From contig NZ_AKIV01000135.1 in assembly GCF_000282655.1 (NCBI RefSeq), forward strand, positions 1 through 64,000: 64,000 nt of DNA, written 5' to 3'. This document shows positions 14,531-40,378 of the stretch, in pieces (positions within the stretch are counted from its first letter, which is position 1; each line of letters opens with the position of its first letter). The position numbers were made by a program, and so were the translations under genes. This DNA is from Polaromonas sp. CF318. Lineage in GTDB: Bacteria > Pseudomonadota > Gammaproteobacteria > Burkholderiales > Burkholderiaceae_C. Under the pieces are notes generated by a model that saw only the letters and a program-made list of their open reading frames with translations, searched no databases and was not told the DNA's origin.

Positions 14531-14848
14531 ATGCGTAAGACCCCCCCCAGCCAGCCGGCCAAGCCGACGCCGGTGCTGATCCAGGCCGCCCTGCAGCGCC
14601 TGGGCAAGCGCCTGGGCACGGCGCGTAAGGCGCGCCAGCTGACGCAAGAAGACCTTGCTCACCAATCCGACGTAGGCACCAGCACCGTGCGCGCCATTGA
14701 GGCCGGTATGGACGGCGTTTCCATGGGCAATTTCCTGAAAGTCATGCGCGGCCTTCAATTGCTGGAGGAGGCCGAGCAACTGCTGGACCCGAAGCGTGAT
14801 CCCGAGATGGTCACCTACGCCTTGAAACGCATGGGGCGTTCCGCATGA
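14531..14848 (+). CDS. hipB: HipB-like antitoxin, XRE family
   Basis: A 105-aa protein with an XRE helix-turn-helix (about residues 23-75: LGTARKARQLTQEDLAHQSDVGTSTVRAIEAGMDGVSMGNFLKVM). It precedes and overlaps a HipA-like kinase gene by four bases (ATGA). By family knowledge it binds and neutralises HipA and represses the operon at the repeats just upstream. Length fits HipB (88-110 aa). Confidence 0.85.
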   Translation: MRKTPPSQPAKPTPVLIQAALQRLGKRLGTARKARQLTQEDLAHQSDVGTSTVRAIEAGMDGVSMGNFLKVMRGLQLLEEAEQLLDPKRDPEMVTYALKRMGRSA

Positions 14849-16107
14849 GCGTCGCGCCTGTCTGGGTCTGGTTGCCGGGCCAGGCCGAGCCGGTGCTGGC
14901 GGGCGAGCTCACGGTCATGCCGGCGGGCGGCCGTTTCAGGTATGTGGAGACGTACCTGGGCCTCGAGCAGCCCGTTTCCCTGGACCCTGTTGAACTGCGC
15001 CTGACGCGCCGCGTCCGGGGCATTGCCCTTCGCGGCGCCGATGGATTGCCCGGTGTCGTGCGGGACGCCAGGCCGGCCGGCTACGGCGCTGACCGGCTCA
15101 ACGCGCAGGCCGGCAGGGAACTCAGCGCGCTCGAACTGTTGCAACGTGGCGTTCCGGACGGCGTGGGTGCCATTGAGGTTTGCCAGGATCTTGAATCCAA
15201 GCTCCGCTGGAGACCCCAAAGCCTGGAAAGTCTTGAGGCCCTGCTCAAGGAACTTGACCAGCTTGAAGCGCCCAGCCGCGCCCTGCGGCGCCTGAACGGC
15301 GACCTGGATACCAGCGCGGGCGGCGAGAGGCCCAAGGCCACCCTCGTGCATGAGGGCAAGCTGTGGCTTGCCAAGATGCAGGCCCGCGGCGATCGGCCGG
15401 CCCTGCCGGCACGCGAATTCGTGACGATGCGGCTGGCGGGGGAAGCCGGGATTGAACCCGCCCGCGTGCTGCTGCGCACGCTGGGGGAACATCAGGTGCT
15501 GCTGGTCGAACGCTTTGACCGGGCCGGTGACCCCGTGCGGCCGCAACGCCGGCTCTATGCCAGCGCACATACCGTGCTGCAGCTCCAGCCCTCCGCCACC
15601 CGGGGCGACCCGGCGCGCTCCTACCTCAATCTGGCCGACCGGCTTCGCGTCTGGATGCATGGGCGGGAGGACCTGCAGCGGCAGCTTGAATTGCTGTGGC
15701 GCCGCATGGTGTTCAACGCCCTGGTGGGTAACGTGGACGATCATCCCCTTAACCATGGGCTGCTCCACGACGGGAAGGGGTGGGCGCTGGCACCGGCCTT
15801 TGACATCACGCCGGCCCTGACCCAAGCCACCAAAGAAGAGGCGCCCATGTTGCTCATGGCCACCGGCGCCGACGGGAGCGCGGTGGCCAGCGCCGGGCGG
15901 CTGCTGGATGCCTCGGTGTACTTTGGGCTACGGCGTGAAGATGCGCAGGATTGGCTGAACCAGGCCGCCCGGCTCGTTGCGGGGCGCTGGGAGGGCATGC
16001 TGCGCGAAGCGGTGGGCCCCGTTGTCGAAGACGCCGCACGCAAGGACGCCCTGGTGGCGGACGCCCGCGCAGCCTTTTCTTACGCGGAAAGTCTCGCGCG
16101 AGGCTAA
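14845..16107 (+). CDS. hipA: HipA-like serine/threonine kinase toxin
   Basis: This 420-aa protein has a HipA N-subdomain (residues 1-110), the glycine-rich phosphate-binding loop SAGGERPKATL (about 153-163), the catalytic loop NVDDHPLNHG (about 294-303, with the catalytic Asp) and the metal-binding FDITPAL (about 314). In E. coli HipA phosphorylates glutamyl-tRNA synthetase and induces persistence; related toxins use other tRNA synthetases. All kinase motifs appear intact, so it should be active unless bound by HipB. It is translationally coupled to hipB. The target is unknown. Confidence 0.87.
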   Translation: MSVAPVWVWLPGQAEPVLAGELTVMPAGGRFRYVETYLGLEQPVSLDPVELRLTRRVRGIALRGADGLPGVVRDARPAGYGADRLNAQAGRELSALELLQRGVPDGVGAIEVCQDLESKLRWRPQSLESLEALLKELDQLEAPSRALRRLNGDLDTSAGGERPKATLVHEGKLWLAKMQARGDRPALPAREFVTMRLAGEAGIEPARVLLRTLGEHQVLLVERFDRAGDPVRPQRRLYASAHTVLQLQPSATRGDPARSYLNLADRLRVWMHGREDLQRQLELLWRRMVFNALVGNVDDHPLNHGLLHDGKGWALAPAFDITPALTQATKEEAPMLLMATGADGSAVASAGRLLDASVYFGLRREDAQDWLNQAARLVAGRWEGMLREAVGPVVEDAARKDALVADARAAFSYAESLARG

Positions 16108-16550: not shown

Positions 16551-16640
16551 TCAACACTTTCAGGGTGGGCGGCGCTATGGCGCCTCGGGCAATATACGCC
16601 ACGGCGCATCGCGGCTCGCCGCAGCCACCCGACTTGGTTT

Positions 16641-18665
16641 ATGGTTGCACCCATGTTCCAGATACGCCACTACCAGAACTGGCTGCGGGCCACACGCGGC
16701 CTGTCATTCGACAACTACGATGCCTTGTGGCGCTGGTCGGTCAGCGACCTCGACGCCTTCTGGCAAAGCATCTGGGACTACTTCGAGGTCCAGTCGCCCA
16801 CGCCGCATACGGCCGTGCTGGGCCGGCGCGCCATGCCGGGCGCTGAATGGTTTCCCGGCGCGCAGGGCAACTACGCGCGGCAGGTGTTCCGCCATGTGGC
16901 CGCGGCCGAGGCGGCCGGTGTGCCCGCCATCCTGAGCCAGGGCGAAGCCAGCCTGGCCAGGGGCGAGGCGGCGCGTCAACTGGGCTGGGCCGAGATGCGC
17001 CGGCAGTCGGCTTCGCTGGCCTTGCACCTCAAGGCGCAGGGCGTCCAGCCCGGCGACCGCGTGGCCGCCTACCTGCCCAACACGCCCGAGACCATGGTCG
17101 CCTTTCTCGCGACGGTCAGCCTGGGCGCCGTCTGGAGCGTCTGCGCGCCCGACATGGGCACGCCCGCCGTGCTGGACCGCTTTCGCCAGATCGCGCCCAA
17201 GGTGCTGATCGCCTGCAACGGCGTGCACTATGGCGGGCGCGACATGGCGCGCGATGAGGCGGTGGCTGAACTCGTCGCGGCGCTGCCCAGCGTCACGCAC
17301 GTGCTTGTCCACGAGATCCTCCCGTCTTCGGGCTTGCCGGCTGGCCGCGCGAGCTTCGCGCAGGCCGTCGCGCGCAACGATGCGCAGGTTGCGGCCTTTG
17401 AGCCGCTCTGGCTGCCCTTTGAGCATCCGCTGTGGATCGTCTACTCCAGCGGCACCACCGGCCTGCCCAAGCCCATCGTCCACGGCCACGGCGGCGTGGC
17501 GCTCGTGGGCTTGGCGCTGCTGCGCCTGCACAACGACCTGGCGCCCAGCCATGCCGACCCGGCCCATCCCGAACGCTTTCACTGGTACAGCTCTACGGGC
17601 TGGATCATGTGGAACGTGCAGGCCGCCAGCCTGCTCAACGGCACGACCTGCTGCATTTACGACGGCAACCCGGCCGGCACCCACAAGGACCAGCCCGACT
17701 GGACCACGCTGTGGCGTTTTGTCGCCAACACCGGCGCGACTTTCTTTGGCGCGGGTGCAGCCTTTTTTGCCAATTGCATGAAGGCGGGCATAGACATCGC
17801 GCAATGCGGGGACCTGAGCCGGCTGCGCACACTGGGCACGACAGGTTCACCGCTGAGCGAAGACACGCAGCGCTGGGGCACAGCGCAATTCGCGAAGATT
17901 GGAAACCCCAACATCTGGTGGTGCAATATCTCCGGGGGCACGGACTTCGCGGGCGCATTTATCGGCGGCAATCGCGAACTGCCCGTGGTTCCCGGCGAAA
18001 TGCAATGCCGCATCCTGGGCTGTGCCGTCGAGGCCTGGAACGACAAGGGCGAGTCCGTGGTCGATGAAGTCGGAGAACTGGTCTGCACCCAGCCCCTGCC
18101 TTCCATGCCGCTGTATTTCGTCGGCGACAAGGACAAGCAGCGCTACCTGGCGAGCTACTTCGACACCTACCCCGGCGTCTGGCGCCACGGCGACTGGCTC
18201 AAGGTCACGCGCTCGGGCGGCTGCATCATCTATGGCCGCAGCGACGCCACCATCAACCGCCACGGCCTGCGCATGGGCACCAGCGAGCTCTACAGCGCCA
18301 TCGAGGCCTTGCCCGAGGTGCTGGACTCCATGGTGGTCGACCTCGAATACCTGGGCCGCGAAAGTTATATGCCGCTCTTCGTGGTGCTGCGCCCGGGCTA
18401 TGAGCTCGACGAGGCGATGAAGGCGCGCCTGAACCAGGCCGTCAAGACCGCGCTGTCACCGCGTTTTGTGCCCAACGAAATTTTTGCCGTGCCCGAGATT
18501 CCGCGCACGCTCTCCGGCAAAAAACAGGAGCTGCCGATCAAAAAGCTGCTGCTGGGCCAGCCGCTCGAGAAGGTCGTGAACCGCGACGCCATGGCCAACC
18601 CGGCTTGCCTGGACTGGTATGTGGACTTTGCGCGCCGGCGCGCCGGGACTGCTCCTCAGGCTTGA
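16641..18665 (+). CDS. Acetoacetate-CoA ligase (acetoacetyl-CoA synthetase)
   Basis: A 674-aa AMP-forming synthetase that activates acetoacetate with ATP and CoA. Motifs in order: N-terminal ACAS cap (FDNYDALWRWSVSDLDAFWQSIWDYF), P-loop YSSGTTGLPKPIVH, STGWIMWN, GTTGSPL, ISGGTDF, the hinge-region GDWLKVTRSGGCIIYGRSDATINRHGLRMGTSELY and the C-terminal lysine region PRTLSGKKQELPIKK. The N-terminus is about 20 residues shorter than many homologues. No strong ribosome binding site is visible; ATG at 16653 is an alternative, and an upstream ATG at 16524 would overlap the divergent RNase H start. It probably serves ketone-body or PHB turnover. Confidence 0.9.
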   Translation: MVAPMFQIRHYQNWLRATRGLSFDNYDALWRWSVSDLDAFWQSIWDYFEVQSPTPHTAVLGRRAMPGAEWFPGAQGNYARQVFRHVAAAEAAGVPAILSQGEASLARGEAARQLGWAEMRRQSASLALHLKAQGVQPGDRVAAYLPNTPETMVAFLATVSLGAVWSVCAPDMGTPAVLDRFRQIAPKVLIACNGVHYGGRDMARDEAVAELVAALPSVTHVLVHEILPSSGLPAGRASFAQAVARNDAQVAAFEPLWLPFEHPLWIVYSSGTTGLPKPIVHGHGGVALVGLALLRLHNDLAPSHADPAHPERFHWYSSTGWIMWNVQAASLLNGTTCCIYDGNPAGTHKDQPDWTTLWRFVANTGATFFGAGAAFFANCMKAGIDIAQCGDLSRLRTLGTTGSPLSEDTQRWGTAQFAKIGNPNIWWCNISGGTDFAGAFIGGNRELPVVPGEMQCRILGCAVEAWNDKGESVVDEVGELVCTQPLPSMPLYFVGDKDKQRYLASYFDTYPGVWRHGDWLKVTRSGGCIIYGRSDATINRHGLRMGTSELYSAIEALPEVLDSMVVDLEYLGRESYMPLFVVLRPGYELDEAMKARLNQAVKTALSPRFVPNEIFAVPEIPRTLSGKKQELPIKKLLLGQPLEKVVNRDAMANPACLDWYVDFARRRAGTAPQA

Positions 18666-18677
18666 GCCAAGGAAGCA

Positions 18678-19637
18678 TCACACCCGCGAGCGTAACCACT
18701 GCGCCAGGTCCACCATGACCCGCAAGCCCACAGGCGACACCGCCGTGAAATGGATGCAGGCATGAATCGCCTCGGGGTAGTGCCGGTGTGCCACCTCCAC
18801 GCCCGCTGCGGCCACGCGTCGCGCGAGGGCGTGGCCTTCGTCGCGCAGCGGGTCGTGGCCCATGGTCGCCACCCAGGTGGCGGGAAGCCTGGCCAGGCCG
18901 CCTGAATCGAGCAAGGCAAAGTCGGGGTGCTTTTGCGCACCGGCCTGCTCGCCGAGATAGCTGGCCATAAACCACTGCATCACGCCCATGCTGAGAAATT
19001 TGCCTTCGTTCTCTTCGTAGGACGCGCTGGGCTGGTCGGGGTGTTGTGCCACCGGGTAGATCAGGCCCAGGGCGCGCACGGCCCTGGCGTCCACGCGGCG
19101 CGCCGCCACCAGCGCCAGCTGCGCACCGGCGCTGTCGCCGGCCACCGCGATGCGGCCGGCGTCGCCGCCCAGCGCGGTGGCGTTCGCGAGCACCCAGCGC
19201 AGGGCGGCCTCGGTGTCGTCCGGCGCGGCGGGAAAGGGATGCTCGGGCGCCAGCCGGTAATCCACCGCCACCACCAACATGCCGGCGTGGTAGCACAACG
19301 TGCGGCAGACCTTGTCATGGGTCTCCAGGTCGCCGATCACAAAACCGCCGCCATGCGCATACAGCAGCACGGGCCAGGGGCCGGCGGTGTCGGGGCTGTA
19401 CACGCGCAGGCCCAGCGGGCCGCCCGGCCCGGGGATGCTGCTGTCGTTCACCTTGCCGATGGCCGGGGCCGGCAGGCCCAGCGTGTCGGCCAGCTCGCGA
19501 TACACCTGGCGCGCGATGGCGGGAGGCAGGCTTTCCAGCGGCGGGTTGCCCTGCGCGGCGGCCTGGGCCAGGAAGCCGGCCAGGGCAGGATCCAGGGGAG
19601 CCGTCTCGAGCACGGCGGGGATGGCAGAGGGGGTCAT
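18678..19637 (-). CDS. HSL-family alpha/beta hydrolase (esterase)
   Basis: A 319-aa hormone-sensitive-lipase-type carboxylesterase with HGGGF oxyanion motif, nucleophile GDSAG, YRLAPEHPFPA, the acid in GHDPLRDEG and a catalytic His in EAIHACIHF. ATG 19637 is chosen over an in-frame upstream ATG because AAGGA lies 6 bp before it. It is the last gene of the minus-strand sigma-54-linked operon, 82 bp after the binding-protein gene, so it may hydrolyse an ester to feed the dehydrogenases encoded upstream. Substrate unknown. Confidence 0.87.
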   Translation of the reverse strand: MTPSAIPAVLETAPLDPALAGFLAQAAAQGNPPLESLPPAIARQVYRELADTLGLPAPAIGKVNDSSIPGPGGPLGLRVYSPDTAGPWPVLLYAHGGGFVIGDLETHDKVCRTLCYHAGMLVVAVDYRLAPEHPFPAAPDDTEAALRWVLANATALGGDAGRIAVAGDSAGAQLALVAARRVDARAVRALGLIYPVAQHPDQPSASYEENEGKFLSMGVMQWFMASYLGEQAGAQKHPDFALLDSGGLARLPATWVATMGHDPLRDEGHALARRVAAAGVEVAHRHYPEAIHACIHFTAVSPVGLRVMVDLAQWLRSRV

Positions 19638-19719
19638 TGCAGTCCTTAGCAGTTCACAGTTGCAGTACAAGGGCTAGCGCGGAACCGGCTTTTGCCGGGC
19701 CGCAGGCGCTTCAGGGGTG

Positions 19720-20832
19720 TCATCTCATTAATTTGCCGTCGCGCGCCCGCATGCCGATCTCGACGTGGTCCGACGCGTGGTGCCGCTCTTTTCCAAACAG
19801 GAGCCTGAAGCCGCCCAGGTCCAGCGCGCCCAGGCTCTCCATCGCCTCGCCCATGCGCGGGCCGTCGGCGCGCGGGCCGGCGCGGCGCAAGGCCTCGGTG
19901 CAGACACGCAGGTTCAGGTAGGACTCCAGGCCCTCGAAGGTCAAGGCCTCTGGGCCTATGAAGGCGTCGGCATCGCGCTCGAGTTCGCGCACGATGGGCA
20001 GGCGGGCCACCTCGGGGTTCGGCACCACGCTGGTGTAGCCCACCAGCCGGTTGCGAAACAGGCGCGTCAGCTGCGTGAGCCCCGCCGTCGACAAGGTGGC
20101 GACGGTGGACGGCGCGCTGTCATAGGTCGAGGCCGGAAGCCGGCCCAGCGCATCCAGCACCTCGTTGCCCAGGTTCAGCACCAGGGCTTGCGGCGCGGCT
20201 TTGGCGACGTCCTGGAAAGCCTTGTCGATCACGTCCAGGCGCGTATCGGTCGTGATGCGCGTGAGCTGCCGGCCATTGCCCTGCAGGGCCGCCGTCAGTG
20301 CCTCGGTGCGTGCCGGCTCGGAGTCATCGGCCAGCAGCACCACCCTGGAAACGCCAATCGATGCCAGCTGGCGCGCCAGTGCATCGGCCTCCCTGGCATC
20401 ATCCGGCCGCAGGCTGAATACATGGCGAACGTCCGGGGCGCGAAGGGCCAGCGCGCCCGACATGGGGCCGACCAGCGGCACACGCAGCTCGCGCGTGGCC
20501 TGGGCCGCCTCCAGGCAGGCCCGCTCGCCCAGGCAGTTCACGATGAGCGCCGCCTTGTGCTGGCGCACCAGGGTTCGCAGGTTGGCGGCCACACGCCGGC
20601 TGTCGCCGCCGTCGTCCAGCGTCACCAGCTCCACGGGGCGACCGAGGATGCCGCCCGACGCATTGACGCGCTCCACATGGGCGCGGGCGCCGGCCAGCAC
20701 ACGGTTCGCGACCGGAAAGCCGGCACCGGTCAGCGGCAGCGACTGCCCGATGACGATGGGCTCGGGCGCGGCCCGGCTTGCCATGCAGGCGCACAGCAGC
20801 ATCGCCGCGGCAAGCAGTGTGCGCCGGCTCAT
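19720..20832 (-). CDS. Liv-type periplasmic binding protein coupled to RND gene
   Basis: A 370-aa protein with a signal peptide (SRRTLLAAAMLLCACMASRA, ending about residue 21) and the Peripl_BP_6 fold (IVIGQSLPLTGAG, VNASGGILGRPVELVTLDDGG, and the C-terminal LGGFRLLF). Such proteins bind small molecules for ABC importers or sensors. Its ATG overlaps the stop of the RND transporter gene (ATGA), so the two are translationally coupled, and no ABC permease is in the operon. It is diverged from the other three binding proteins of this window. It may serve as a periplasmic ligand carrier or receptor for the RND system. Confidence 0.85.
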   Translation of the reverse strand: MSRRTLLAAAMLLCACMASRAAPEPIVIGQSLPLTGAGFPVANRVLAGARAHVERVNASGGILGRPVELVTLDDGGDSRRVAANLRTLVRQHKAALIVNCLGERACLEAAQATRELRVPLVGPMSGALALRAPDVRHVFSLRPDDAREADALARQLASIGVSRVVLLADDSEPARTEALTAALQGNGRQLTRITTDTRLDVIDKAFQDVAKAAPQALVLNLGNEVLDALGRLPASTYDSAPSTVATLSTAGLTQLTRLFRNRLVGYTSVVPNPEVARLPIVRELERDADAFIGPEALTFEGLESYLNLRVCTEALRRAGPRADGPRMGEAMESLGALDLGGFRLLFGKERHHASDHVEIGMRARDGKLMR

Positions 20833-23276
20833 GCCGGCACACCCGCGCCGTCCGGCCTGGGGCTGGCGAAGGCCGGGGCCGGCCGCAGCAGAAAGTAGGC
20901 CAGCGCCGGCAGCAGCACCAGCGCCCCCACCATGTTCCACACAAACATAAAGGCCAGCAGGATGCCCATGTCGGCCTGGAACTTGATCGGCGAAAAAGCC
21001 CAGGTGCTCACGGCGAGGGCCAGCGTGATACCGGTGAGCAGCACCACGCGGCCGGTGAACTGCAGCGCATGGTGGTAGGCGTCGGACAGGCTGGCGCCTT
21101 CGCGCATGCGGGCCAGCGTGATGCTGAGCACATAAAGCGCGTAGTCCACGCCTATGCCCACGCCCAGCGCGATCACCGGCAACGTGGCGACCTTGACCCC
21201 CATGCCAAGGCCTACCATCAGCGCCTCGCACAAAATCGAAGTCAGCACCAGCGGCAGCACCGCCACCACCACCGCGCGCCAGGAGCGGAAGGTGATCCAG
21301 CACAACACCACCACCGCCGCATAGACCCACAGCAGCATCTCGCGCATGGCCTTGCCCACCACGATATTGGTGGCGGCCGCGATGCCGGCGCTGCCGGCCG
21401 CCAGCTTGAAGCTGACCTCGGGCGTGTTGTTGACGGCCGCGAAGCGCTCCACGCCCTCCACCACGCCGGCCAGCGTTTCGGCCTTGTGGTCTTTCAGGTA
21501 AACATAGAGGGCCAGGAAGGAGCAGCTCTGGTTGAAGAGCTCGCGCGGCGCGCGCGTCTGCACGCCGCCCAGCGCGCCCTCGTTGGGCAGCAACTCGAAC
21601 CACTTGAAGTTGCCTTCGTTGTAGCCCACCATGGCCAGCTTGGACAGCGCGGCCATGGAGTTGGTGGACTCTACGCCGGGCAACTGCTCAAGCCGCCAGG
21701 CCAGCGCGTCGACCTTGGCCAGGGTTTCATAGGCCGTGCATTTGTCCGCGGGCGTGGTGACCATCACCGTCAGGATGTCGGCGCTGGCCGCGTAGTGGGC
21801 GATCTGGTAGGCGTTGTCCTGGTTGTAGCGCGAGCCCGGCCGCAGCTCGGAGGCGCCCGCATCCAGGTCTCCTATCTTCAGGTGCAGGCTGGCGGCATAA
21901 CCGCCCGCGGCCATCAGGGCCGCAACCACCACGGCCGCCGTGGCCCAGCGCTTTTGCGTGAAATGGTCGAGCAAGGCCCACAGCCATGAGCGCCGGCCTT
22001 GCCGTCCCTGCTGCTCGGTTTCCTGGCGCAGGCTGCGCGCCGCGGCGGCCGGTGCCACGCCCGCATAGGACAGCAGTATGGGCAGCAGCACCAGGTTGCT
22101 GAAGATCAGCACCGCCACGCCTATGCTGGCGATCAGCGCCAGGTCCTGGATGACCTTGATCTGGATGATGACCAGCACCGCGAAGCCCACGGCATCGCAG
22201 AGCAGGGCGGTCAGGCCGGCCACAAAGAGGCGCCGGAAGGTGTAGCGCGCGGCCACCACGCGGTGCGTGCCGCGGCCTATGTCCTGCATGATGCCGTTCA
22301 TCTTCTGCGCGCCGTGGCTCATGCCGATGGCGAACACCAGAAAGGGCACCAGCACCGAATAAGGGTCCAGCTCGTAGCCCAGCAGTGCCAGCAGGCCGAA
22401 CTGCCAGACCACCGCCACCAGCGAGCAGGCCACCACCAGCGCGGTGCTGCGCTTGCAGCGGGTGTAGCCGTAGAGCACCACGGTGGTGATGGCCAGGGCC
22501 AGCAGGAAGAACAGCAACACCTGGTGCAGGCCCTCGATCAGGTCGCCCACCACCTTGGCGAAACCGGTTACGCGGATCTGCAGCGTGTCGCTGCCGTACT
22601 TGGCGCGCAAGGCTTCGACCTGGCGCGACAGTTCGCCGTAGTCCAGCGCCTGGCCGGTCTCGGGGTTGCGGTCCAGCAGCGGGACAAACACGATGCTGGA
22701 CTTGAAGTCGCCCGCCACCAGCTGGCCGATCTCGCCCGAACGCTCAACGTTGGCGCGCAGCCCGGCGAGGCTCGCGGGCGAGCCGTCGTAAGCGTCGGGG
22801 ATCACCGGCCCGCCGTCCAGTCCTTCCTCGGTCACAGCCACCCAGCGCGTGTTGGAGGTCCACAGCGACTTCATGAAAGGCCGGTCCACGCCGGGCAGCA
22901 AAAAGATCTCGTCATTGACCTTTTGCAGCGCGTCGAGGTAGGCCTTGTCGAAGATGGTGCCTTGTTTGGCCTCCACCACCAGCCGCAGCGCGTTGGCCTG
23001 GCCGCCCAGGTCGGCCTTGTGGGCCAGGTAATTGACGATGTAGGGATGGCCCGTGGGAATGGTTTTCTCAAAGCTCGCGTTCAGGCGCAGCCTGGTCGCC
23101 TGCCAGCCCAGCAGCAGGGTGAGCAGCACGCAGACGGCCATGACCCAGGGCCTGTGGTTGAAAAAGACGCGCTCGAGCAGCGAGCCCGAGCGCGTGTCGA
23201 AATCCTCCAGCCGCGCAACGACGGGTTGTGCGGGCTGGAGATCAGGAGAAGAGGCGGAGGAGGAATCGGCGTGCAT
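20829..23276 (-). CDS. RND-superfamily transporter, MMPL type
   Basis: An 815-aa membrane protein with the RND topology: TM1 at about residues 45-63, a large periplasmic loop, a five- to six-helix bundle (about 235-430), a second anchor around 465, another large loop and a final six-helix bundle (about 645-800). Proton-relay-like polar residues lie in the helices (IGMSHGAQKMNG in the first bundle; GVGIGVDYALYVLS in the second). The MMPL branch moves lipids, sterols, hopanoids and other hydrophobic molecules, not usually as a tripartite drug pump. The operon partners are a YCF48 propeller, DUF1329 and DUF1302 proteins, which suggests a dedicated trans-envelope pathway. Confidence 0.9.
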   Translation of the reverse strand: MHADSSSASSPDLQPAQPVVARLEDFDTRSGSLLERVFFNHRPWVMAVCVLLTLLLGWQATRLRLNASFEKTIPTGHPYIVNYLAHKADLGGQANALRLVVEAKQGTIFDKAYLDALQKVNDEIFLLPGVDRPFMKSLWTSNTRWVAVTEEGLDGGPVIPDAYDGSPASLAGLRANVERSGEIGQLVAGDFKSSIVFVPLLDRNPETGQALDYGELSRQVEALRAKYGSDTLQIRVTGFAKVVGDLIEGLHQVLLFFLLALAITTVVLYGYTRCKRSTALVVACSLVAVVWQFGLLALLGYELDPYSVLVPFLVFAIGMSHGAQKMNGIMQDIGRGTHRVVAARYTFRRLFVAGLTALLCDAVGFAVLVIIQIKVIQDLALIASIGVAVLIFSNLVLLPILLSYAGVAPAAAARSLRQETEQQGRQGRRSWLWALLDHFTQKRWATAAVVVAALMAAGGYAASLHLKIGDLDAGASELRPGSRYNQDNAYQIAHYAASADILTVMVTTPADKCTAYETLAKVDALAWRLEQLPGVESTNSMAALSKLAMVGYNEGNFKWFELLPNEGALGGVQTRAPRELFNQSCSFLALYVYLKDHKAETLAGVVEGVERFAAVNNTPEVSFKLAAGSAGIAAATNIVVGKAMREMLLWVYAAVVVLCWITFRSWRAVVVAVLPLVLTSILCEALMVGLGMGVKVATLPVIALGVGIGVDYALYVLSITLARMREGASLSDAYHHALQFTGRVVLLTGITLALAVSTWAFSPIKFQADMGILLAFMFVWNMVGALVLLPALAYFLLRPAPAFASPRPDGAGVPA

Positions 23277-23299
23277 GACTTTTGGGTGACTGTCTTTTT

Positions 23300-24358
23300 T
23301 CAGTGGGCGGGCAGTTCCACGCGCCGCATGCCGCGCAGGCTCGCGAGTACCAGCGCGCCATCGGCCGCCAGCGCGACGCCGGAGACCGGGACAGGCTCGC
23401 GCGCGGGGATGCGCCGCAGCGCCGGTCCGTCCGCGCCGCCCAGCAAGGCGTCGCCGGCCTGGCCCAGCAGCACAAAGCCGCCGTTCGGCAAAGCCGTGCC
23501 GGCACCAACGGCCATGGGCAGGCCGGTGTCCAGCTTGTCCCAGTGCTGCCCTTCATCGCCGGAACGCCAGGCCGTGCCGCGCAGGCCGTAGGCCACCAGG
23601 GCGCCGCCGCGTGTCTGCAGCAGGCCGAAGAAACTGCCCTTGTAGGGCGAGGCCAGCGCGCTGAAGCTCGCGCCGCCATCGGTGGAGCGCAGCAGCAGGC
23701 CCTGCTCGCCGGCAACCACCAGCGTGCGGCCGCGGGCGCGCACGCCGTAGAGGTGCAAGCTCTTGGGGTTGGGCAAGCGCGGCCCCAGCGCCGCCCAGCT
23801 CTTGCCGCCGTCATCGGTGGCAAACATCAGGTTGTAGGCGCCGACGGCAAAGCCGCGCTGCGCATCGAGAAATTCCAGGTCAAAAAAAGGTTTGTCGGCG
23901 CCCTCTTCCACCAGGCGCTCCGCTTGTGCCATGGCCTTGGCATCGCCGCTGCGCTGCGCCGCCTGCTTCACGAGCTCGGCCGCCTGCACGCCGTCAAGCT
24001 GCTTGTGCCAGCTGGCGCCGGCGTCGTCGCTGCGCAGGATGACGCCCAGGTGGCCGGCGGCCCAGCCGGTGCGCGCGTCGGCAAAACACACGGCCGCCAG
24101 GCTGGCCTGCACCGGCACCTGCGCCTGCCGCCAGCTCGCGCCGTGGTCGTCCGACAGCAGCACCGTGCCGCGCTCGCCGACGGCCACCAGCCGGTCGCCG
24201 GCCCGCGCCACGGCCAGCGTGGCCGCGCCGAGTGCCTTGGGTGTGGGCAGCGCGGCCTGCGACAGCACGGCCGGCACGCTGGCCGCCCATGCGGGCAGCA
24301 TCGCCGCGCCACCCAGCAGGCCCGCCAGGGCGGCTTGCCGGCGCGTGACTCCAGCCAT
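23300..24358 (-). CDS. YCF48/HCF136-like beta-propeller protein
   Basis: This 352-aa exported protein starts with a twin-arginine-like signal (TRRQAALAGLLGG...AWAAS). It has repeated Asp-box or BNR-like units, e.g. LLSDDHGASWRQ, LRSDDAGASWHK, FATDDGGKSWAA, LRSTDGGASFSA and WRSGDEGQHWDK, consistent with a seven-bladed propeller like the plant HCF136/YCF48 assembly factor. It overlaps the DUF1329 gene by one base (TGATG) and ends 23 bp before the RND gene. It is likely a periplasmic adaptor of the RND complex. The exact role is unknown. Confidence 0.85.
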   Translation of the reverse strand: MAGVTRRQAALAGLLGGAAMLPAWAASVPAVLSQAALPTPKALGAATLAVARAGDRLVAVGERGTVLLSDDHGASWRQAQVPVQASLAAVCFADARTGWAAGHLGVILRSDDAGASWHKQLDGVQAAELVKQAAQRSGDAKAMAQAERLVEEGADKPFFDLEFLDAQRGFAVGAYNLMFATDDGGKSWAALGPRLPNPKSLHLYGVRARGRTLVVAGEQGLLLRSTDGGASFSALASPYKGSFFGLLQTRGGALVAYGLRGTAWRSGDEGQHWDKLDTGLPMAVGAGTALPNGGFVLLGQAGDALLGGADGPALRRIPAREPVPVSGVALAADGALVLASLRGMRRVELPAH

Positions 24359-25716
24359 CAGCGCGCGCCTTCGCTGGAGAGCGACTCGGCGCTGAAGAAG
24401 GAGCGCGGAATCGGCGGCTGCACCTCGTACTGCCTGGGTAGCTCGTTGGAGGCCATGTTCAGGTAGTAGGCGCCGGTCTGCATGTCATAGCCGCCCCACA
24501 GCACGACGTTGCTCACGGCCGGGATGTCCGGCGCCGTCAGCATCAGCGCGTAGTTGGTGCGCCAGAGCTGGCCCTTGGCGTCCCAGCCGTCGAACAGCGC
24601 GATTTGCCAGGAGTCCTCGTCGATGTAGTACTTGCGCTTGGGCACCACGTGGCGCTTGCCGGCCGCCAGCGTGGCCTCGACTTCCCAGACGCGGTGCAGC
24701 TCCCAGCGCACCTGCGTGGGGTTCAGCGTGTTGGGCGTCACCAGGTCTTCGATCTTCGCGGAGGCGGCGCGGTTGTTGTTGTAGGGGATGTAGATCTCCT
24801 TCTTGCCCACCAGCTTGAGCTCGTGTTTGTCGATGGGGCCGAACAGCGTGAAGGCCTCGTCGAACAGGCCTATGCCGGAGGTCACCGAGTCGGGCGTGTC
24901 GTAGGCCACGGAAGGCGCCTTGCGCACGCGGCGCTGGCCCACCAGGTATTGCCACAGGCCGCGCGGCGCGGCTTCCGAGACGCCGTCGAGTGCCAGGATG
25001 GCCTCGCCCGCCTTGGAGCCCGGCGCGTTGACCACCAGCTTGCCGTACTGGTAGTAGCCGTCGAATTTCTCGGCGCTGCCGTCCTTGTCGTAAAAGGCCT
25101 GGCGTATGGTCTGCGTGCCGCCGGAGGCCATGGTGCGCTTGCCGTCGGAAGTCACCACCCACACGCGCATGGGCATGGAGAAGTTGCCGCCGCGCCAGGC
25201 CGTGCGCTGGTTCCACATGGCTTCATAGCCGTCCTTGGGGATGGGAAACGGTATGCCGCCGAAAGCGCCTTCCATGCCGTAGCCGCCCTCTATGGTCTTG
25301 GCCCGGGTGGCGTTTTTAAAAGTGTTGTCGTACACCGACTGCGGCGCCGCCGCGGTGCGGTGCGTGGGATAGACGTCGATGCGGAAGTCGGGGTATTTCT
25401 TCATCAGCGCCTGCACGCCGTCGGTCAGCTTGTCGGCGTGCTGCGCCATGTTCTTGGCATTGATCGACAGGAGGGGTTTTTCGCCGGGGTAGAGGTCGGG
25501 CCGCGCATCGCCGTTTTTGTAGCCCGGCGTGGCCTTGGTGAGGCCCCCTTCCCAGGGCGGGATGCTGCCGTCCTTGTTGCCGGCTTTTTCGGCGCCCATG
25601 GGCGTCAAGGTGGATTTCAGCCTGGCGGCCTCTTCGGCGGTGACGCCGGCCTGGGCGGAGATCGCGCCGGCCAGCAGGGCTGCCATGAGCAAGGAATGTG
25701 TTGCGGTCTGCTTCAT
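24358..25716 (-). CDS. DUF1329 envelope protein
   Basis: A 452-aa exported protein with a signal peptide ending SAQA and DUF1329 hallmarks: LTPMGAEKAGNKDGSIPPWEGGL near the N-terminus, KNATRAKTIEGGYGMEGAFGGIPFPIP, and a C-terminal RRTY-like region with KRKYYIDEDSWQIALFDGWDAKGQLWR. Structural knowledge of the family suggests a LolA/LolB-like fold able to hold lipophilic ligands. It is almost always encoded with a DUF1302 protein and an RND transporter, as here. A periplasmic carrier or outer membrane-associated role is inferred. Confidence 0.88.
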   Translation of the reverse strand: MKQTATHSLLMAALLAGAISAQAGVTAEEAARLKSTLTPMGAEKAGNKDGSIPPWEGGLTKATPGYKNGDARPDLYPGEKPLLSINAKNMAQHADKLTDGVQALMKKYPDFRIDVYPTHRTAAAPQSVYDNTFKNATRAKTIEGGYGMEGAFGGIPFPIPKDGYEAMWNQRTAWRGGNFSMPMRVWVVTSDGKRTMASGGTQTIRQAFYDKDGSAEKFDGYYQYGKLVVNAPGSKAGEAILALDGVSEAAPRGLWQYLVGQRRVRKAPSVAYDTPDSVTSGIGLFDEAFTLFGPIDKHELKLVGKKEIYIPYNNNRAASAKIEDLVTPNTLNPTQVRWELHRVWEVEATLAAGKRHVVPKRKYYIDEDSWQIALFDGWDAKGQLWRTNYALMLTAPDIPAVSNVVLWGGYDMQTGAYYLNMASNELPRQYEVQPPIPRSFFSAESLSSEGAR

Positions 25717-25754
25717 GATGGTTGTCTCGGTGGTGTTATCGAAAAGTCGGAAAC

Positions 25755-27434
25755 TCAGAACGTGCGGGAAGCGGTGAAGGAAACGTAGTTGCGGTCTTTC
25801 AGGCTTTGGCCATAGGACAGCATGCGGGTGGGCGTGCTCGGGTCGGTGACGGTCAAGGTGTTTTCCTTGCCGAAGAAGGCCGTGTAGTTCAGCGCGAAAT
25901 TCCAGGCGTTCTGGTACTTGCCCTTGATGCCTATGCTCACGTCGCCCGCCTTGCTGGCGCCGCCGGCGAAGTTGATGACGGCCGAGGAGCGGCCGCCGAA
26001 GTTGTAGCCCAGGCTCAGCGGGATGGACAGGTCCAGGCCGGGCAGCACCTGGAAGTACTGCGGTTCAAAAATCATGCGAAACGCCGCCGCGTCGCGCGTG
26101 GCATTCGGGTCCAGCCCGCCGAAGCCGACGGCGCTCGGGTTCTTCGTCACGCTCAGCAGCCGGTTCCAGGCGAGTTCCGCCACCAGGGCGCCGCCGTCCC
26201 ACAGGCTGGACTTGTTGAGCACATAAATACCCGAGAGGTTGATGTGCGCCGTCCTGCCGGTGGCATAGCAGGGGTTGGCGGCCGAGCCGTCGCAGTTGGC
26301 CGGCGGCATGAAGGGCGCGCCGCCCAGCACGGCCGGGTCGCTGGCCAGCGGCGCATTGCTGCGCAGCGAGCCTTCGAGCGCCCAGTTGAGCTGGCCGATC
26401 GACGAGGTGACGCTGGCGCCCACGGTCTTGATGCCCTTGGCATAGACGTTGTGCACATTGCCGTTGATCAGGTCGAACACCGGGACGGCCGGGGTCTTGT
26501 CGTTGTAGCGCGCCGCGTACAGGCCGAACTCATAGTTGCTGCCGGCCGGGGCCCAGCGCAGCTGCGCGCCGAACTGGCCGCTGTCGCCCGGCTTCTGGTC
26601 GCGGCTGGTGTCGGTGGGCAGCACCGGCCCGCCCAGGTAGACGCGGCCGCCGCCTATGTAGTCCTGGTTGGAGAAATAGCTGCCGACCCCGGGGATCTTG
26701 CTGGGCCGCCACTTGAGCTGGTAGTAGCCGCCAAGCGTCAGGCCTTCGGCCACCTGCAGCGTGCCCGAGATCTGCTCCACCGGCAGCAGCACTTCCTTGA
26801 ACTGCCAGTTCGGCACCGAGACGATTTTGGCGATGTCCACCGGGCCTTGCGCGTTGGCGATGCCGTTCTGGCCGAAGAACACGCTCTCGCCGTACTGCAG
26901 CGCGTGTTTGCCCACGCGTATCGAGGCCGGCATGCTGCCTATCGATCCCTTGCCCCAGACAAAGGCATCGAGGAATTCGTCGCCGCGGCCATGCTGGTCC
27001 CGGGTCGCGGGCACGAACTGGTTGGCGGGCTGGCCGGCGAAGTTGCTGACGCCGGCCGTGCCGTCGTTGGCATTGGCGCGCAGGTACTGCGAGTCGTACC
27101 AGGCCGAGTGGCTGATGCGCAGGCCCCAGTTGCTGCGGCTGTAGTCGAACTCGGTCAGCAGGTCGGCGCGGTTGGAGATCAGGCCCTTCTTGAAGTTGAG
27201 GTCGCCGTCGTTCTCGTTGGTCACGCCGCCGTCGCCGCGGGCGGCGGGCGAGGTCAGCAGCGCCGACGGATCCTTGAGCCGCCAGGCCAGGCTGTATTTG
27301 GGCGTGAAGTCCAGCCGGATCTTGGTGTCCGGGTCGGCGGATTCCAGCTCAAAGGCATGGGCCGGCAGCACGCAGGCCAGGCTGCAGCTCAGCGCCAGCG
27401 TGCTGAGCCGGAAGGGGGTGAATAACTTGGTCAT
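25755..27434 (-). CDS. DUF1302 outer-membrane protein
   Basis: A 559-aa protein with a clear signal peptide (ending AHA at about residue 27) followed by FELESADPDTKIRLDFTPKYSLAWR, the standard DUF1302 opening. Alternating aromatic or hydrophobic strands and a terminal Phe (SFTASRTF) fit a beta-barrel inserted by BAM. ATG 27434 has GAGGAGAC upstream; the longer ORF in this frame is an artefact. DUF1302 proteins accompany DUF1329 and RND genes in loci for hydrophobic substrates. It probably forms the outer membrane passage. Confidence 0.88.
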   Translation of the reverse strand: MTKLFTPFRLSTLALSCSLACVLPAHAFELESADPDTKIRLDFTPKYSLAWRLKDPSALLTSPAARGDGGVTNENDGDLNFKKGLISNRADLLTEFDYSRSNWGLRISHSAWYDSQYLRANANDGTAGVSNFAGQPANQFVPATRDQHGRGDEFLDAFVWGKGSIGSMPASIRVGKHALQYGESVFFGQNGIANAQGPVDIAKIVSVPNWQFKEVLLPVEQISGTLQVAEGLTLGGYYQLKWRPSKIPGVGSYFSNQDYIGGGRVYLGGPVLPTDTSRDQKPGDSGQFGAQLRWAPAGSNYEFGLYAARYNDKTPAVPVFDLINGNVHNVYAKGIKTVGASVTSSIGQLNWALEGSLRSNAPLASDPAVLGGAPFMPPANCDGSAANPCYATGRTAHINLSGIYVLNKSSLWDGGALVAELAWNRLLSVTKNPSAVGFGGLDPNATRDAAAFRMIFEPQYFQVLPGLDLSIPLSLGYNFGGRSSAVINFAGGASKAGDVSIGIKGKYQNAWNFALNYTAFFGKENTLTVTDPSTPTRMLSYGQSLKDRNYVSFTASRTF

Positions 27435-27513
27435 GGTTTTGTCTCCTCGTGGGGTGTCGTTGTGGTCGTTGCTGCGGATGCCCTCGCACCCGCCGTGTGC
27501 GTGTCGGATGTCG

Positions 27514-28281
27514 TCAGATATAGGTCGAGGCCAGGCCGCCGTCGACGGGAATGTTGGCGCCGCTGACCCAGCGCGCGGCGTCGCCGCACAGCCAGGCCAC
27601 CACGGGGGCGATCTCGTCGGCAAAGCCGGGGCGCAGCATGCGGTGGGCATCGGCCTGCACGCGCTCCTGGCCCAGCATGGCCACGAAGTCACCCAGGATG
27701 GGCGTGAATACCGGGCCGGGTGCCACGCAGTTCATGCGCACACCCTTGCCCAGGAACCACTCCTGCGACTGCACGGCGTTCCAGACGATCAACGCTTCCT
27801 TGAAGTACTGGTAGCAGGTCGCCTGCGGCACCGGGTGGGCGCGCAACCATGCGGCGCCGGCCTCAAAGCCCTTGGCTGCCGCGAGTTCCTTGTGCAGGGC
27901 CAGGCGTTGCGGCCATTCGGCGCCCAGGATGGAGGCCACGTTGACGATGCTGCCGCCGCGCGGCATGCGCGCCAGCACTTTTTCGGTCAAATGCCTCAGG
28001 CCCAGGTAGTTCACGCGGGCCACCAGCTCGCCCTCGGCCGTGCCCGGCACGCCGGCGATGTTGCACAGCGCATCGACCTGGGCCGGCAGCTGGGCCACGG
28101 CCGCGTCTATGGCCTCGGCGGTGCCGAGGTCGGCCTTGATGAAGCCGTCCAGCGTGAGGCTGGGGTCGTTGCGGTCCATGCCTATGACCCGGGCGCCCTG
28201 GAAGCGCGCCAGCCTGGCGGTTTCGGCGCCTATGCCCGACGAAGTGCCGGTGATGACGATGGTTTTGCCTTGCAGGCTCAT
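27514..28281 (-). CDS. SDR-family alcohol dehydrogenase (coniferyl-alcohol-dehydrogenase-like)
   Basis: A 255-aa short-chain dehydrogenase with cofactor motif TGTSSGIG (12-19), a DADL-like acidic segment KADLG, NIAG, catalytic Ser in NVASILG and the YxxxK pair in CYQYFKEALIVW. The latter stretch, the length and the PGPVFTPILGDF segment resemble CalA coniferyl alcohol dehydrogenase and 3-alpha-hydroxysteroid dehydrogenase/carbonyl reductase of pseudomonads and comamonads. Next to an aldehyde dehydrogenase it fits the first step of alcohol to aldehyde to acid oxidation. The true substrate, aromatic or steroid-like, is not decided by sequence. Confidence 0.82.
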   Translation of the reverse strand: MSLQGKTIVITGTSSGIGAETARLARFQGARVIGMDRNDPSLTLDGFIKADLGTAEAIDAAVAQLPAQVDALCNIAGVPGTAEGELVARVNYLGLRHLTEKVLARMPRGGSIVNVASILGAEWPQRLALHKELAAAKGFEAGAAWLRAHPVPQATCYQYFKEALIVWNAVQSQEWFLGKGVRMNCVAPGPVFTPILGDFVAMLGQERVQADAHRMLRPGFADEIAPVVAWLCGDAARWVSGANIPVDGGLASTYI

Positions 28282-28351
28282 AAGGCCTCCGGGGTGTGGG
28301 GATTCATGAAGCGCTCCTTGAAGTGGTGAAGTCGTGGGCTGAAGGCCCGAT

Positions 28352-29806
28352 TCAGAACGGGAACATGGGCGCGGTGTCCTTGATGGTCATCCACTGCCAC
28401 TGCGTGTATTCCTCCCAGTCGGCCGGGCCGCCCACGCTGGTGCCGTTGCCCGCGATGCCGGGGCCGCCGAAGGGGTTGACGCAGTCGTCGTTGACGGTCT
28501 GGTCGTTGATGTGGACCATGCCGGCCTTGAGCTGCTGGCCCACCGCCATGGCGCGGCCCACGGAGCGCGAAATGACGGCGCAGGCCAGGCTGCCGGTGTT
28601 GTTGTTGGCCAGCGCCACCGCCTCCTCGTCGCTGCCGAAGGTGATGATGTTGGCCACCGGGCCGAAGGTTTCCTCGTCGAACACGCGCATGCCGGGCTTC
28701 ACGCCCGACAGCACCGTCGGCTTGTAGAACAGGCCGTCATGGGTGCCGCCGGCTTCGAGCTTCGCACCGGCCTTGATGCTGTCCTGCACGATGGCATGCA
28801 CGCGGTCGCGCTGGCGCGCGTCGATCAGCGGCCCGAGCGCGACCTGGCCGGTGGCGCCGTCGCCGACCGGCAGGTGCGTGGCCTTGGCGACCAGGCGCTG
28901 CAGCAAGGGCGCGGCGATGCTGTGGTGCACCAGGATGCGGTTGGCGGCCATGCAGATCTGGCCCTGGTGCAGGTAGGCGGCCCAGGCCGCGTTGCTCGCG
29001 GCGATGTCCAGGTCGGCGTCGTCCAGGATGATCAGCGAGTTCGCGCCGCCCAGCTCCAGCGACACCTTTTTCAGGTGCTTGCCCGCGAGTTCGCCGATAC
29101 GCCTGCCCACGGCGGGTGAGCCGGTGAAGGCGATCATGGGCACCAGCGGGTCGGTCACCAAAGCCTCGCCGGCCTCGGCGTCGCCGGGCAACACATGCAG
29201 CAAATCCTTGGGCAGGCCCGCCTCCGCAAAAATGCGCGCGATCATCAGGCCGCCGGTCACCGGCGTGCGGGTGTCGGGCTTGATCACCACGGCATTGCCC
29301 GCGGCCAGCGCCGGCGCCACGGCGCGCAGCGTCAGGATCAGCGGAAAGTTGAAGGGCGAGATCACGCCCACCACGCCGTGCGGCATGCGGCGGGCAATGC
29401 TGGTGCGCCCCGGCACGCTGGGCAGCACATGGCCCTGGGGCTGCAGCGGCATGGCCGCGGCCAGGTGGCAGATCGTGATGGCCTCGCGGATTTCGTGCTG
29501 GCCCTTGGGCAGGATGCCGCCGGTTTCGCGGGTGGCATACAGCGCGAGCTCGTCGAAGTGCTGCTGGAACAGCGCGCCGGCGCGGCGAAAGACCTCGGCC
29601 TTCTCGCGCGGGGGCAGGGCGGCCCAGGGCTTTTGCGCGCCGGCCGCCGCCCGCGTGGCCGCTGCCACATCCGCCGCGTTGGCGATGCCCACGGTGCACA
29701 TCACTTTTCCGGTTGCGGGCTCGACCACCTCACGCTTGCCGCCGCCCAGCGGCGCGCTCGCCAGCGCGGAAAAATCCAGAAATGCCTTCGCGTCGGATAC
29801 ACCCAT
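28352..29806 (-). CDS. Aldehyde dehydrogenase (benzaldehyde/aryl-aldehyde type)
   Basis: A 484-aa NAD(P)-dependent aldehyde dehydrogenase: ISPFNFPLILTLRAVAPALAAGNAVVIKPD, FTGSPAVGRRIGE, catalytic Glu in LELGGANS, catalytic Cys in QGQICMAANR, and EETFGPVANI. The C-terminal VHINDQTVNDDCVNPFGGPG is typical of benzaldehyde and vanillin dehydrogenases (XylC/Vdh-like). It is the first gene of the minus-strand operon behind the sigma-54 promoter at 29869-29883 and divergent from a XylR-type activator. It converts an aldehyde, probably from the SDR gene product, to the acid. Confidence 0.9.
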   Translation of the reverse strand: MGVSDAKAFLDFSALASAPLGGGKREVVEPATGKVMCTVGIANAADVAAATRAAAGAQKPWAALPPREKAEVFRRAGALFQQHFDELALYATRETGGILPKGQHEIREAITICHLAAAMPLQPQGHVLPSVPGRTSIARRMPHGVVGVISPFNFPLILTLRAVAPALAAGNAVVIKPDTRTPVTGGLMIARIFAEAGLPKDLLHVLPGDAEAGEALVTDPLVPMIAFTGSPAVGRRIGELAGKHLKKVSLELGGANSLIILDDADLDIAASNAAWAAYLHQGQICMAANRILVHHSIAAPLLQRLVAKATHLPVGDGATGQVALGPLIDARQRDRVHAIVQDSIKAGAKLEAGGTHDGLFYKPTVLSGVKPGMRVFDEETFGPVANIITFGSDEEAVALANNNTGSLACAVISRSVGRAMAVGQQLKAGMVHINDQTVNDDCVNPFGGPGIAGNGTSVGGPADWEEYTQWQWMTIKDTAPMFPF

Positions 29807-29868
29807 TTGCTTTTGTCCTCACGGTTGTTTGATCAGCTCGCCACATCGGCGCGTCGTGCTGCTGTATC

Positions 29869-29883
29869 GCAATGCATGTACCA
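29869..29883 (-). promoter_or_regulatory. Candidate sigma-54 (-24/-12) promoter of the dehydrogenase-RND operon
   Basis: On the minus strand TGGTACATGCATTGC matches the consensus TGGCACG-N4-TTGC with GG and GC exactly 12 bp apart; only two consensus positions differ. The predicted start is near 29858, about 50 bp before the aldehyde dehydrogenase ATG. The divergent gene encodes a sigma-54-dependent activator, which supports use. Confidence 0.72.
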
Positions 29884-30000: not shown

Positions 30001-30050
30001 TTTGATCAAATAGTTATAAAGTAAAACTACTTTTTCACCATTTGATCAAT
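30001..30050. promoter_or_regulatory. Paired enhancer-like sites (UAS) for the XylR-type activator
   Basis: The palindrome TTTGATCAAA (30001-30010) and near-palindrome TTTGATCAAT (30041-30050) have centres exactly 40 bp apart, about four helical turns. They lie roughly 135-190 bp upstream of the predicted sigma-54 start on the minus strand, the usual distance for XylR/DmpR enhancer sites, whose known sites carry TTGATCAA-type dyads. They also lie just before the activator ATG, which would allow autoregulation. Binding is inferred. Confidence 0.65.
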
Positions 30051-32509: not shown

Positions 32510-32514
32510 GCGGG

Positions 32515-33257
<743 letters not shown>

Positions 33258-33261
<4 letters not shown>

Positions 33262-35136: not shown

Positions 35137-35190
35137 TTGACGCGATGCGAGCCGGCCCGGCCCATCGCATTCCCGAGGCGGCAAGGACCC

Positions 35191-38009: not shown

Positions 38010-38040
38010 CCGCAAAACAAGAAACAGGACGGAGACAAAG

Positions 38041-38943: not shown

Positions 38944-38992
38944 GCCGACCCGTTCGGACCGTTCGAACCATTCACACGCAGGAGACAAAACC

Positions 38993-40345: not shown

Positions 40346-40378
40346 GCGCCCAGCCGCCCACCTTTTCTCAAGGCCACC

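Follow-up and report, generated by a model that had tools for sequence, protein, structure and literature searches.

The locus described here lies in a stretch of 64,000 nucleotides from Polaromonas sp. CF318 (contig NZ_AKIV01000135.1, positions 1 to 64,000), hereafter the window, in which eight genes on the minus strand (18678-29806) form a cluster with all intergenic gaps of 82 bases or less. The first two encode an aldehyde dehydrogenase (ALDH) of the aromatic-aldehyde type (28352-29806, Pfam Aldedh) and a short-chain dehydrogenase/reductase (SDR) of the coniferyl-alcohol dehydrogenase subfamily (27514-28281). The other six (18678-27434) encode a DUF1302 protein, predicted to be an outer-membrane barrel (AmeA-type, 25755-27434, PF06980, E 1.5e-123), a DUF1329 protein, predicted to be a LolA-like periplasmic carrier (AmeB-type, 24358-25716, PF07044, E 2.5e-130), a YCF48/BNR propeller (PSII_BNR) predicted to be exported (AmeC-type, 23300-24358, PF14870, E 7.4e-19), an MMPL/HAE3 RND transporter (AmeD-type, 20829-23276, PF03176, E 1.4e-20), a Liv-type periplasmic binding protein (type I, 19720-20832, Peripla_BP_6, PF13458, E 5.2e-36) and an HSL-family (Abhydrolase_3) esterase (18678-19637, PF07859, E 1e-62). 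All six exceed the curated Pfam cut-offs, the binding protein having been scanned from a start 30 bases further out than the corrected one. Its start was corrected to 20832, where the ATG overlaps the RND stop codon as ATGA, and that of the esterase to 19637, where the ATG is preceded by AAGGA. The gaps amount to 70 bases between ALDH and SDR, 79 between SDR and DUF1302, 38 between DUF1302 and DUF1329, 23 between YCF48 and RND and 82 between binding protein and esterase, with overlaps of 1 base between DUF1329 and YCF48 and 4 bases between RND and binding protein. The initial annotation, made from the DNA alone, had placed six contiguous minus-strand genes behind two dehydrogenases with small gaps or overlaps, and this layout was found as described. 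A regulator gene lies divergently on the plus strand (30065-31867). The source genome has one DUF1302 gene and one DUF1329 gene by genome search, and among named relatives Polaromonas sp. JS666 is the closest (RND proteins 98% identical).

The four envelope genes are adjacent in the order DUF1302, DUF1329, YCF48 and RND (A-B-C-D). The best NCBIfam match of the RND protein was the HAE3 model TIGR00921 (E 7.4e-49), and although its 166.4 bits are under the 351.9-bit cut-off, the protein appears to belong to the HAE3 rather than the HAE1 family. Kinship with sterol and hopanoid systems had been suggested initially, and this holds at the superfamily level and not beyond: the RND protein is distantly similar to HpnN, but the HpnN models gave 78.0 and 23.4 bits against cut-offs of 751.85 and 1100, far below them, and a hopanoid or sterol transporter was rejected on these scores. 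Trafficking of hopanoids, sterols or lipids in the manner of HpnN is also argued against by the aromatic type of the catabolic genes, by the ten genes scanned, among which there was no sterol or hopanoid gene, and by the patchy distribution of the RND gene (at E 1e-100, 70 of 299 genomes of the family and 45 of 369 of the class), and we consider it very improbable. In the second half of the RND protein the motif Asp711-Tyr712 is present in all 81 aligned rows, and the first-half equivalent is Ser320-His321 in 80 of the 81, the remaining row having an X. These pairs presumably lie in transmembrane helices 10 and 4, respectively, where other family members carry relay acids; the AmeD-type RND lineage appears to show asymmetric relay-like motifs.

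The AlphaFold2 model of the DUF1302 protein (mean predicted local distance difference test score, pLDDT, of 86.8) has many long strands, as a barrel would give. That of the DUF1329 protein has a mean pLDDT of 90.7, and its best folds in a fold search were those of LolA3 (template modelling score 0.83 by target length and 0.47 by query length), with matches to the DUF1329 structure 4z48 and to LolA-superfamily proteins as well. In two other genomes, the loci L013:658-3843 (-) and L172:1661-4834 (-) each hold one open frame for an MMPL RND protein with a C-terminal LolA_like domain, and these LolA_like ends give partial DUF1329 matches. They look like natural pump-carrier fusions and would support a direct hand-off from the RND protein to the carrier. 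Both the LolA-like fold and the fusion to an RND protein favour carriage of a lipophile over a role in outer-membrane vesicles or 'nanopods', by which the genes would remodel the envelope during growth on aromatics and the substrate would not be moved. This latter explanation, which seems to us quite unlikely, draws on the impaired phenanthrene growth of a nanopod-forming Delftia upon deletion of its DUF1329 gene, but the DUF1329 protein in the published study of the benzene degrader ORM2a is just 21% identical to that of Delftia (PMC13101534). The Tat-like YCF48 protein of the initial annotation stands for the window copy, which has a twin-arginine N-terminus, and for 3 of 10 relatives inspected (L033, L035, L098); in the seven others (L034, L036, L038, L040, L043, L050, L066) no Tat motif was seen past the likely start, and a Tat-like export signal, judging from these N-termini, is not a family trait here. 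An automatic count of 30 in 79 was set aside, since stretches upstream of the coding sequence had entered into it.

Relatives of the RND protein were collected with a five-sequence RND alignment as the query; at least 589 were confirmed, and the best 80 were kept, a sample that leans to close kin. Gene counts were taken from homology searches, gene calling being imperfect in this G+C-rich DNA, and not from iterated profiles, into which remote matches were drawn. With profiles, A-B-C-D was detected on a single strand in 73 of the 80 loci, L064 having a few kb between B and C. By tblastn, the RND gene was found in 80 of the loci, YCF48 in 78, DUF1302 and DUF1329 in 74 each, ALDH in 17, the regulator in 16, SDR in 13, the esterase in 10 and the binding protein in 2. 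A second survey was centred on DUF1329, a match of some kind to which occurs in 44 of 200 genomes of the order, many of these being short pieces in other proteins, whereas 31 copies in 19 genomes are full-length at E <1e-50. Stretches of 7-18 kb around the 30 full-length copies outside the window (two of them cut by contig ends) were searched with profiles built from close relatives, which may miss remote ones, and 21 of the 30 had all four genes: twelve as A-B-C-D, seven as B-A-D-C, one as A-D-C-B and one split divergently. In the A-B-C-D case of L180, two gene pairs are about 9 kb apart. Co-occurrence of DUF1302, DUF1329, YCF48 and MMPL genes is thus far above chance in both samples. One 4.1 Mb genome, G129, carries six DUF1329 copies (L163, L164, L165, L167, L168, L192), five of them with no recognisable DUF1302, YCF48 or RND neighbours.

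Among the 20 top-ranking loci of the family, the window excluded (L259-L278), A-B-C-D was found in 19 (one contig being cut), a divergent regulator in 16, SDR upstream in 13, ALDH together with SDR in 12 and an esterase within 4 kb downstream in 10. In a wider family set of 66 loci, which overlaps these 20 and in which most loci reach just 1.5 kb past the RND gene, a distance rule placed the esterase directly after RND in 5 and the binding protein in 2. Gene content and conservation bear out the initial proposal that these genes form a set across the envelope for a hydrophobic substrate, linked to alcohol and aldehyde oxidation and an esterase; the set is conserved. An ordinary broad drug efflux pump, with its catabolic neighbours there by chance, would be compatible with membership of the RND superfamily, but we give it hardly any weight against an operon conserved with aromatic oxidation genes and an aromatic-sensing regulator, and an RND protein that is HAE3-like rather than HAE1-like.

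The SDR scored 407.8 bits against the coniferyl-alcohol dehydrogenase model NF009092 (cut-off 242) and carries the YxxxK and TGxxxGIG motifs. The closest solved structures to ALDH are 4-hydroxybenzaldehyde dehydrogenases, benzaldehyde and salicylaldehyde dehydrogenases also being in the list of ten, and the esterase has HGGG and GDSAG motifs and esterases as its closest structures. Together with the MopR/DmpR-like sensor described below, the coniferyl-alcohol dehydrogenase type of the SDR and the aromatic-aldehyde-like ALDH point to aromatic alcohols, perhaps phenylpropanoid or benzyl, rather than sterols, as the predicted substrate class. The same trend was seen on plasmids, of which 8 records were inspected among 39 matches. 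On the Azospirillum plasmid pAB510c the four cassette genes are accompanied by a MobR-like regulator, an annotated benzaldehyde dehydrogenase and an alcohol dehydrogenase that is of the Zn type by its NCBIfam matches; by gene content this is the same module, built with an unrelated alcohol dehydrogenase. In three further records, genes annotated for hydroxyquinol, homogentisate or 4-hydroxybenzoate lie within about 8 kb, which brings annotated aromatic genes to 4 of 8, and one of the eight is suggestive (a Rieske protein and the fumarylacetoacetate hydrolase family).

The divergent regulator is a sigma-54 activator of the MobR/MopR/DmpR type, with XylR_N and V4R sensor, AAA+ and Fis-type helix-turn-helix domains by Pfam, and aligns with PoxR, MopR and CapR/DmpR. 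Its His134 and Trp162 correspond in the alignment to His106 and Trp134 of MopR, which are reported as the anchors of the phenol hydroxyl group (PMC10715001), with equivalent residues in DmpR (PMC7264223). MopR Phe99 is replaced by Ala127 in the window regulator, which suggests that its ligand differs from that of MopR. Cys183, Glu206, Cys209 and Cys217 fall at zinc-ligand positions, so that the Cys3Glu site is kept under the MopR numbering that we assume here.

A sigma-54-like -24/-12 site, TGGTACATGCATTGCG, was recognised by its sequence pattern on the minus strand at 29868-29883, about 62 bases before the ALDH start. Candidate activator sites are the palindrome TTTGATCAAA (30001-30010), which lies some 120 bases upstream of this site, and the near-palindrome TTTGATCAAT (30041-30050). 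The -24/-12-like sites were scored with weights that we set from the consensus (maximum 8.8 points). A best site of 7.0 or more was present in 12 of 13 related regulator-operon gaps, the figure for stretches of equal length from the same loci being 87 of 714, and one of 7.4 or more in 10 of 13 gaps and 22 of 714 such stretches. The 13 gaps are those of the 20 loci minus three with an intervening gene and four in which no regulator was found. In a second set of nine related gaps, eight had a site of at least 6.8, and that of L038 had none of at least 6.4. The upstream elements are more variable: in the window and L033 palindromes stand out clearly 100-200 bases from the promoter, TGATCA-type or TTGA..TCAA words occur upstream in L034, L038, L259, L260, L262 and L264, and none were found in the remaining relatives. 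In most relatives the TTGATCAA palindromes were not found. From the regulator and the promoter we infer that the operon is inducible; a search for expression in Polaromonas sp. JS666 gave no usable literature.

A Liv-type binding protein is found in the operon at 7 of the 20 closest family loci (L259-L278), one of which, L261, was counted by hand, with the binding protein 1 kb after RND and no ALDH or regulator found. Between 0.35 and 0.7 of the 13 SDR-type operons would be expected to have one by chance and 7 do, an estimate that uses 33 binding-protein genes over cut-off in the genome, assumes about 4800 genes and treats the operons as independent, which close relatives are not. The operon binding proteins fall into two ortholog groups, with between-group matches of about 30% identity and mostly short. 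Type I (window, L261, L264 and L266, 54-67% identical, and also L033, 95%) is found after the RND gene, directly so in L033, L264 and L266. Type II (L034, L259, L268, L269, L270, 67-84% identical) is found between ALDH and SDR, between SDR and DUF1302, or after the esterase. A third kind is present in L098, in an operon without SDR, and both types in one operon were not found among the operons examined. A quick tree of the RND proteins, in which several forks stayed open, puts the window (type I) closest to L259 (type II), the two RND proteins being 93% identical; elsewhere the types and the absence of a binding protein are mixed, so that the slot has apparently been refilled repeatedly. A tree of these binding proteins with generic ones was mostly unresolved, with badly placed long rows, and was not used.

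At E 1.8e-99, the type II protein of L259, of which L034, L268, L269 and L270 hold orthologs, matches CouP (entries 4jb0/4jb2). In Rhodopseudomonas palustris, CouP (RPA1789) is a nanomolar binder of coumarate, caffeate, ferulate and cinnamate and operates with the ABC proteins CouSTU (PMC3610893). For the operon binding proteins, in most cases no ABC genes were found nearby. The type I protein of the window is not CouP-like, CouP entries being absent from its five PDB matches at E 1e-5, and its structural relatives are weak, the best being 3lop (E 1.5e-24). A search that took the Liv permease and ATPase proteins of the window as queries, and that could miss remote ones, found no Liv permease or ATPase in 12 of 13 upstream stretches other than that of JS666 and none in 19 of 20 operon stretches. 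The exception is G805 (L261 and L292, the same genes), where LivG- and LivF-like genes (33-36%) lie on the operon strand about 2 kb before SDR, preceded by another binding protein, with a second one near the operon end; here the operon binding protein may have ABC partners.

Past the regulator, the window has LivM-, LivG- and LivF-like genes and a third ABC ATPase-like gene on the minus strand (31880-35011), and JS666 also has LivM/G/F there. They were rejected as conserved partners of the binding protein because, among the upstream stretches searched, they were found beside the operon in these two genomes and, apart from the remote LivG/LivF-like genes of G805, in no other. A P. sprentiae gene for an 'ABC substrate-binding protein', which overlaps that of the RND protein, was rejected as a further case, its product matching no Pfam family at E 1e-5.

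The related operons repeatedly carry one of two unrelated, apparently interchangeable binding proteins, and this looks new, no description of a binding protein associated with the cassette having been found in the open-licence literature. A tentative and on balance doubtful extension is an RND envelope conveyor in which the Liv-type protein, freed from its ABC transporter, would load an aromatic ligand onto the chain of RND, YCF48 and LolA-like proteins or take it off, one slot being served by two unrelated binding proteins; our estimate for it was lowered slightly because of the LivG/LivF-like genes before the G805 operon.

Elsewhere in the window, an acetoacetate-CoA ligase gene (16626-18665, plus strand, NF002937 and TIGR01217 over cut-off) converges with the esterase end of the operon, and a HipA_C domain protein is encoded at 14845-16104 (plus strand). 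A PfkB kinase fused to DUF2090, followed by a Liv-type binding protein and a Liv permease (36075-41305, plus strand) and preceded by an RpiR-like frame at 35137 assigned by eye, is reminiscent of a region for the uptake and catabolism of inositol or a sugar.

In light of these data we propose, with moderate confidence, that the cluster is an operon under sigma-54 control, with an AmeABCD-type transporter at its centre, by which the cell both uses aromatic alcohols or their esters and survives them. The MopR/DmpR-like regulator would sense a phenolic or similar aromatic compound and switch on one promoter, from which the eight genes would be read as a single transcript. The HSL esterase would release an aryl alcohol from its ester, the SDR would oxidise the alcohol to the aldehyde and ALDH the aldehyde to the acid. 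In parallel, the RND protein would extract the hydrophobic compound from the inner membrane or periplasm, with YCF48 as a putative adaptor, and hand it to the LolA-like DUF1329 protein for passage to the DUF1302 outer-membrane barrel, while the Liv-type protein may hold an aromatic ligand in the periplasm. The main role would be protection by outward removal, as published for AmeABCD.

AmeABCD of Castellaniella defragrans has DUF1302, DUF1329/LolA-like, COG4447/YCF48 and HAE3 RND proteins in the same order as the window, and sits beside catabolic genes for hydrophobic plant compounds, where it is induced by monoterpenes (PMC6394551). Its authors describe composition and order as conserved, propose a tetrapartite system that is likely a new HAE3 subfamily, and had already assigned AmeB to the LolA superfamily (PMC6394551). 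Deletion of ameABCD lowers growth on limonene and other non-functionalised monoterpenes, growth on perillyl alcohol, aldehyde and acid being unaffected; it slightly raises Nile Red accumulation, the real-time efflux curves of mutant and wild type are almost identical, and acetate rescued the mutant at limonene concentrations of up to 5 mM (PMC6394551).

The outward direction has a possible, though less probable, alternative in uptake, in which an aromatic ester or alcohol of low solubility would enter by way of the barrel and the LolA-like carrier, the binding protein would collect it in the periplasm and the RND protein would shuttle it between the inner-membrane leaflet and the carrier. This would agree with the recurrence of the operon binding proteins, one type of which is CouP-like, with a growth defect that is limited to non-functionalised monoterpenes in the ameABCD mutant (PMC6394551), and with Pseudomonas putida, where the homologs PP_0765/PP_0766/PP_2018/PP_2019 are required for growth on Tween 20 (PMC10866462). 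The acetate rescue, however, fits toxicity better, and RND proteins with partners are, as a rule, exporters.

Several points weigh against protection by export in an aromatic operon. A periplasmic binding protein usually means uptake, and the Tween 20 requirement fits uptake equally. The published evidence for export by AmeABCD is modest (slight Nile Red effect, alike efflux curves), and the likeness of our cassette to it rests on gene families and order set against a published description rather than on direct sequence alignment. ALDH, the esterase and the RND protein had no NCBIfam model over cut-off among the matches listed. Nine of the 30 DUF1329 copies had one or more partners missing from the stretch and five had none of the three; these nine comprise five of the six G129 copies, which stand alone, three G168 copies with no recognisable DUF1302 and one with no YCF48. 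In the plasmid tally, 3 of 8 had no clear aromatic context, and one of these had neither DUF1302 nor DUF1329 annotated next to the RND gene.

The AmeABCD-type cassette is widespread, with at least 589 RND relatives, and often lies beside aromatic or terpene genes. In the sub-clade described here the operon is small and its substrate class (aryl alcohols and esters) can be predicted, the regulator has a testable ligand, the LolA-like carrier is confidently modelled, and of the two alternative binding proteins one is similar to a protein whose ligand is known. The direction of transport and the hand-off partner are therefore directly testable. This is relevant to strains for lignin and aromatic bioconversion.

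The initial annotation had put the cassette forward as an undescribed system, which it is not: besides AmeABCD (PMC6394551), it is found in the AphR/AphS/AphT regulons of Betaproteobacteria, where COG4447-COG1033-PF07044-DUF1302 operons hold the same four families (PMC6449761), among fitness-linked genes of P. putida (PMC10866462) and in a 'Nanopod' cluster (PMC13101534). AphR belongs to the XylR/DmpR group, and in Burkholderia sp. 383 an esterase/lipase and an aldehyde dehydrogenase lie in operons adjacent to the four-family operon; these regulons are comparative predictions, and the part of the report used here mentions neither a Liv-type binding protein nor a coniferyl-alcohol dehydrogenase (PMC6449761). 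In P. putida, fitness data tie the DUF1302 and DUF1329 proteins of the above set to a periplasmic protein and an efflux transporter, with contacts predicted among the four, but the genes lie in two separate loci by locus number and were linked to Tween 20 use (PMC10866462). The cluster of ORM2a has porin-like, DUF1329, YCF48-related and MMPL proteins as in the window, but belongs to a distant anaerobe, includes an extra universal stress protein and has a proposed function (PMC13101534). DUF1302 and DUF1329 have also been described together with a sigma-54 regulator in a phenol-hydroxylase cluster (PMC7012976). The window differs from the AmeABCD locus in its esterase, coniferyl-alcohol dehydrogenase, MopR-like regulator, binding protein and aryl-alcohol type of operon. 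The transporter core is therefore already known, and what is new is an operon in which a binding protein, apparently recruited and exchanged, is joined to this core and coupled to aryl-alcohol oxidation.

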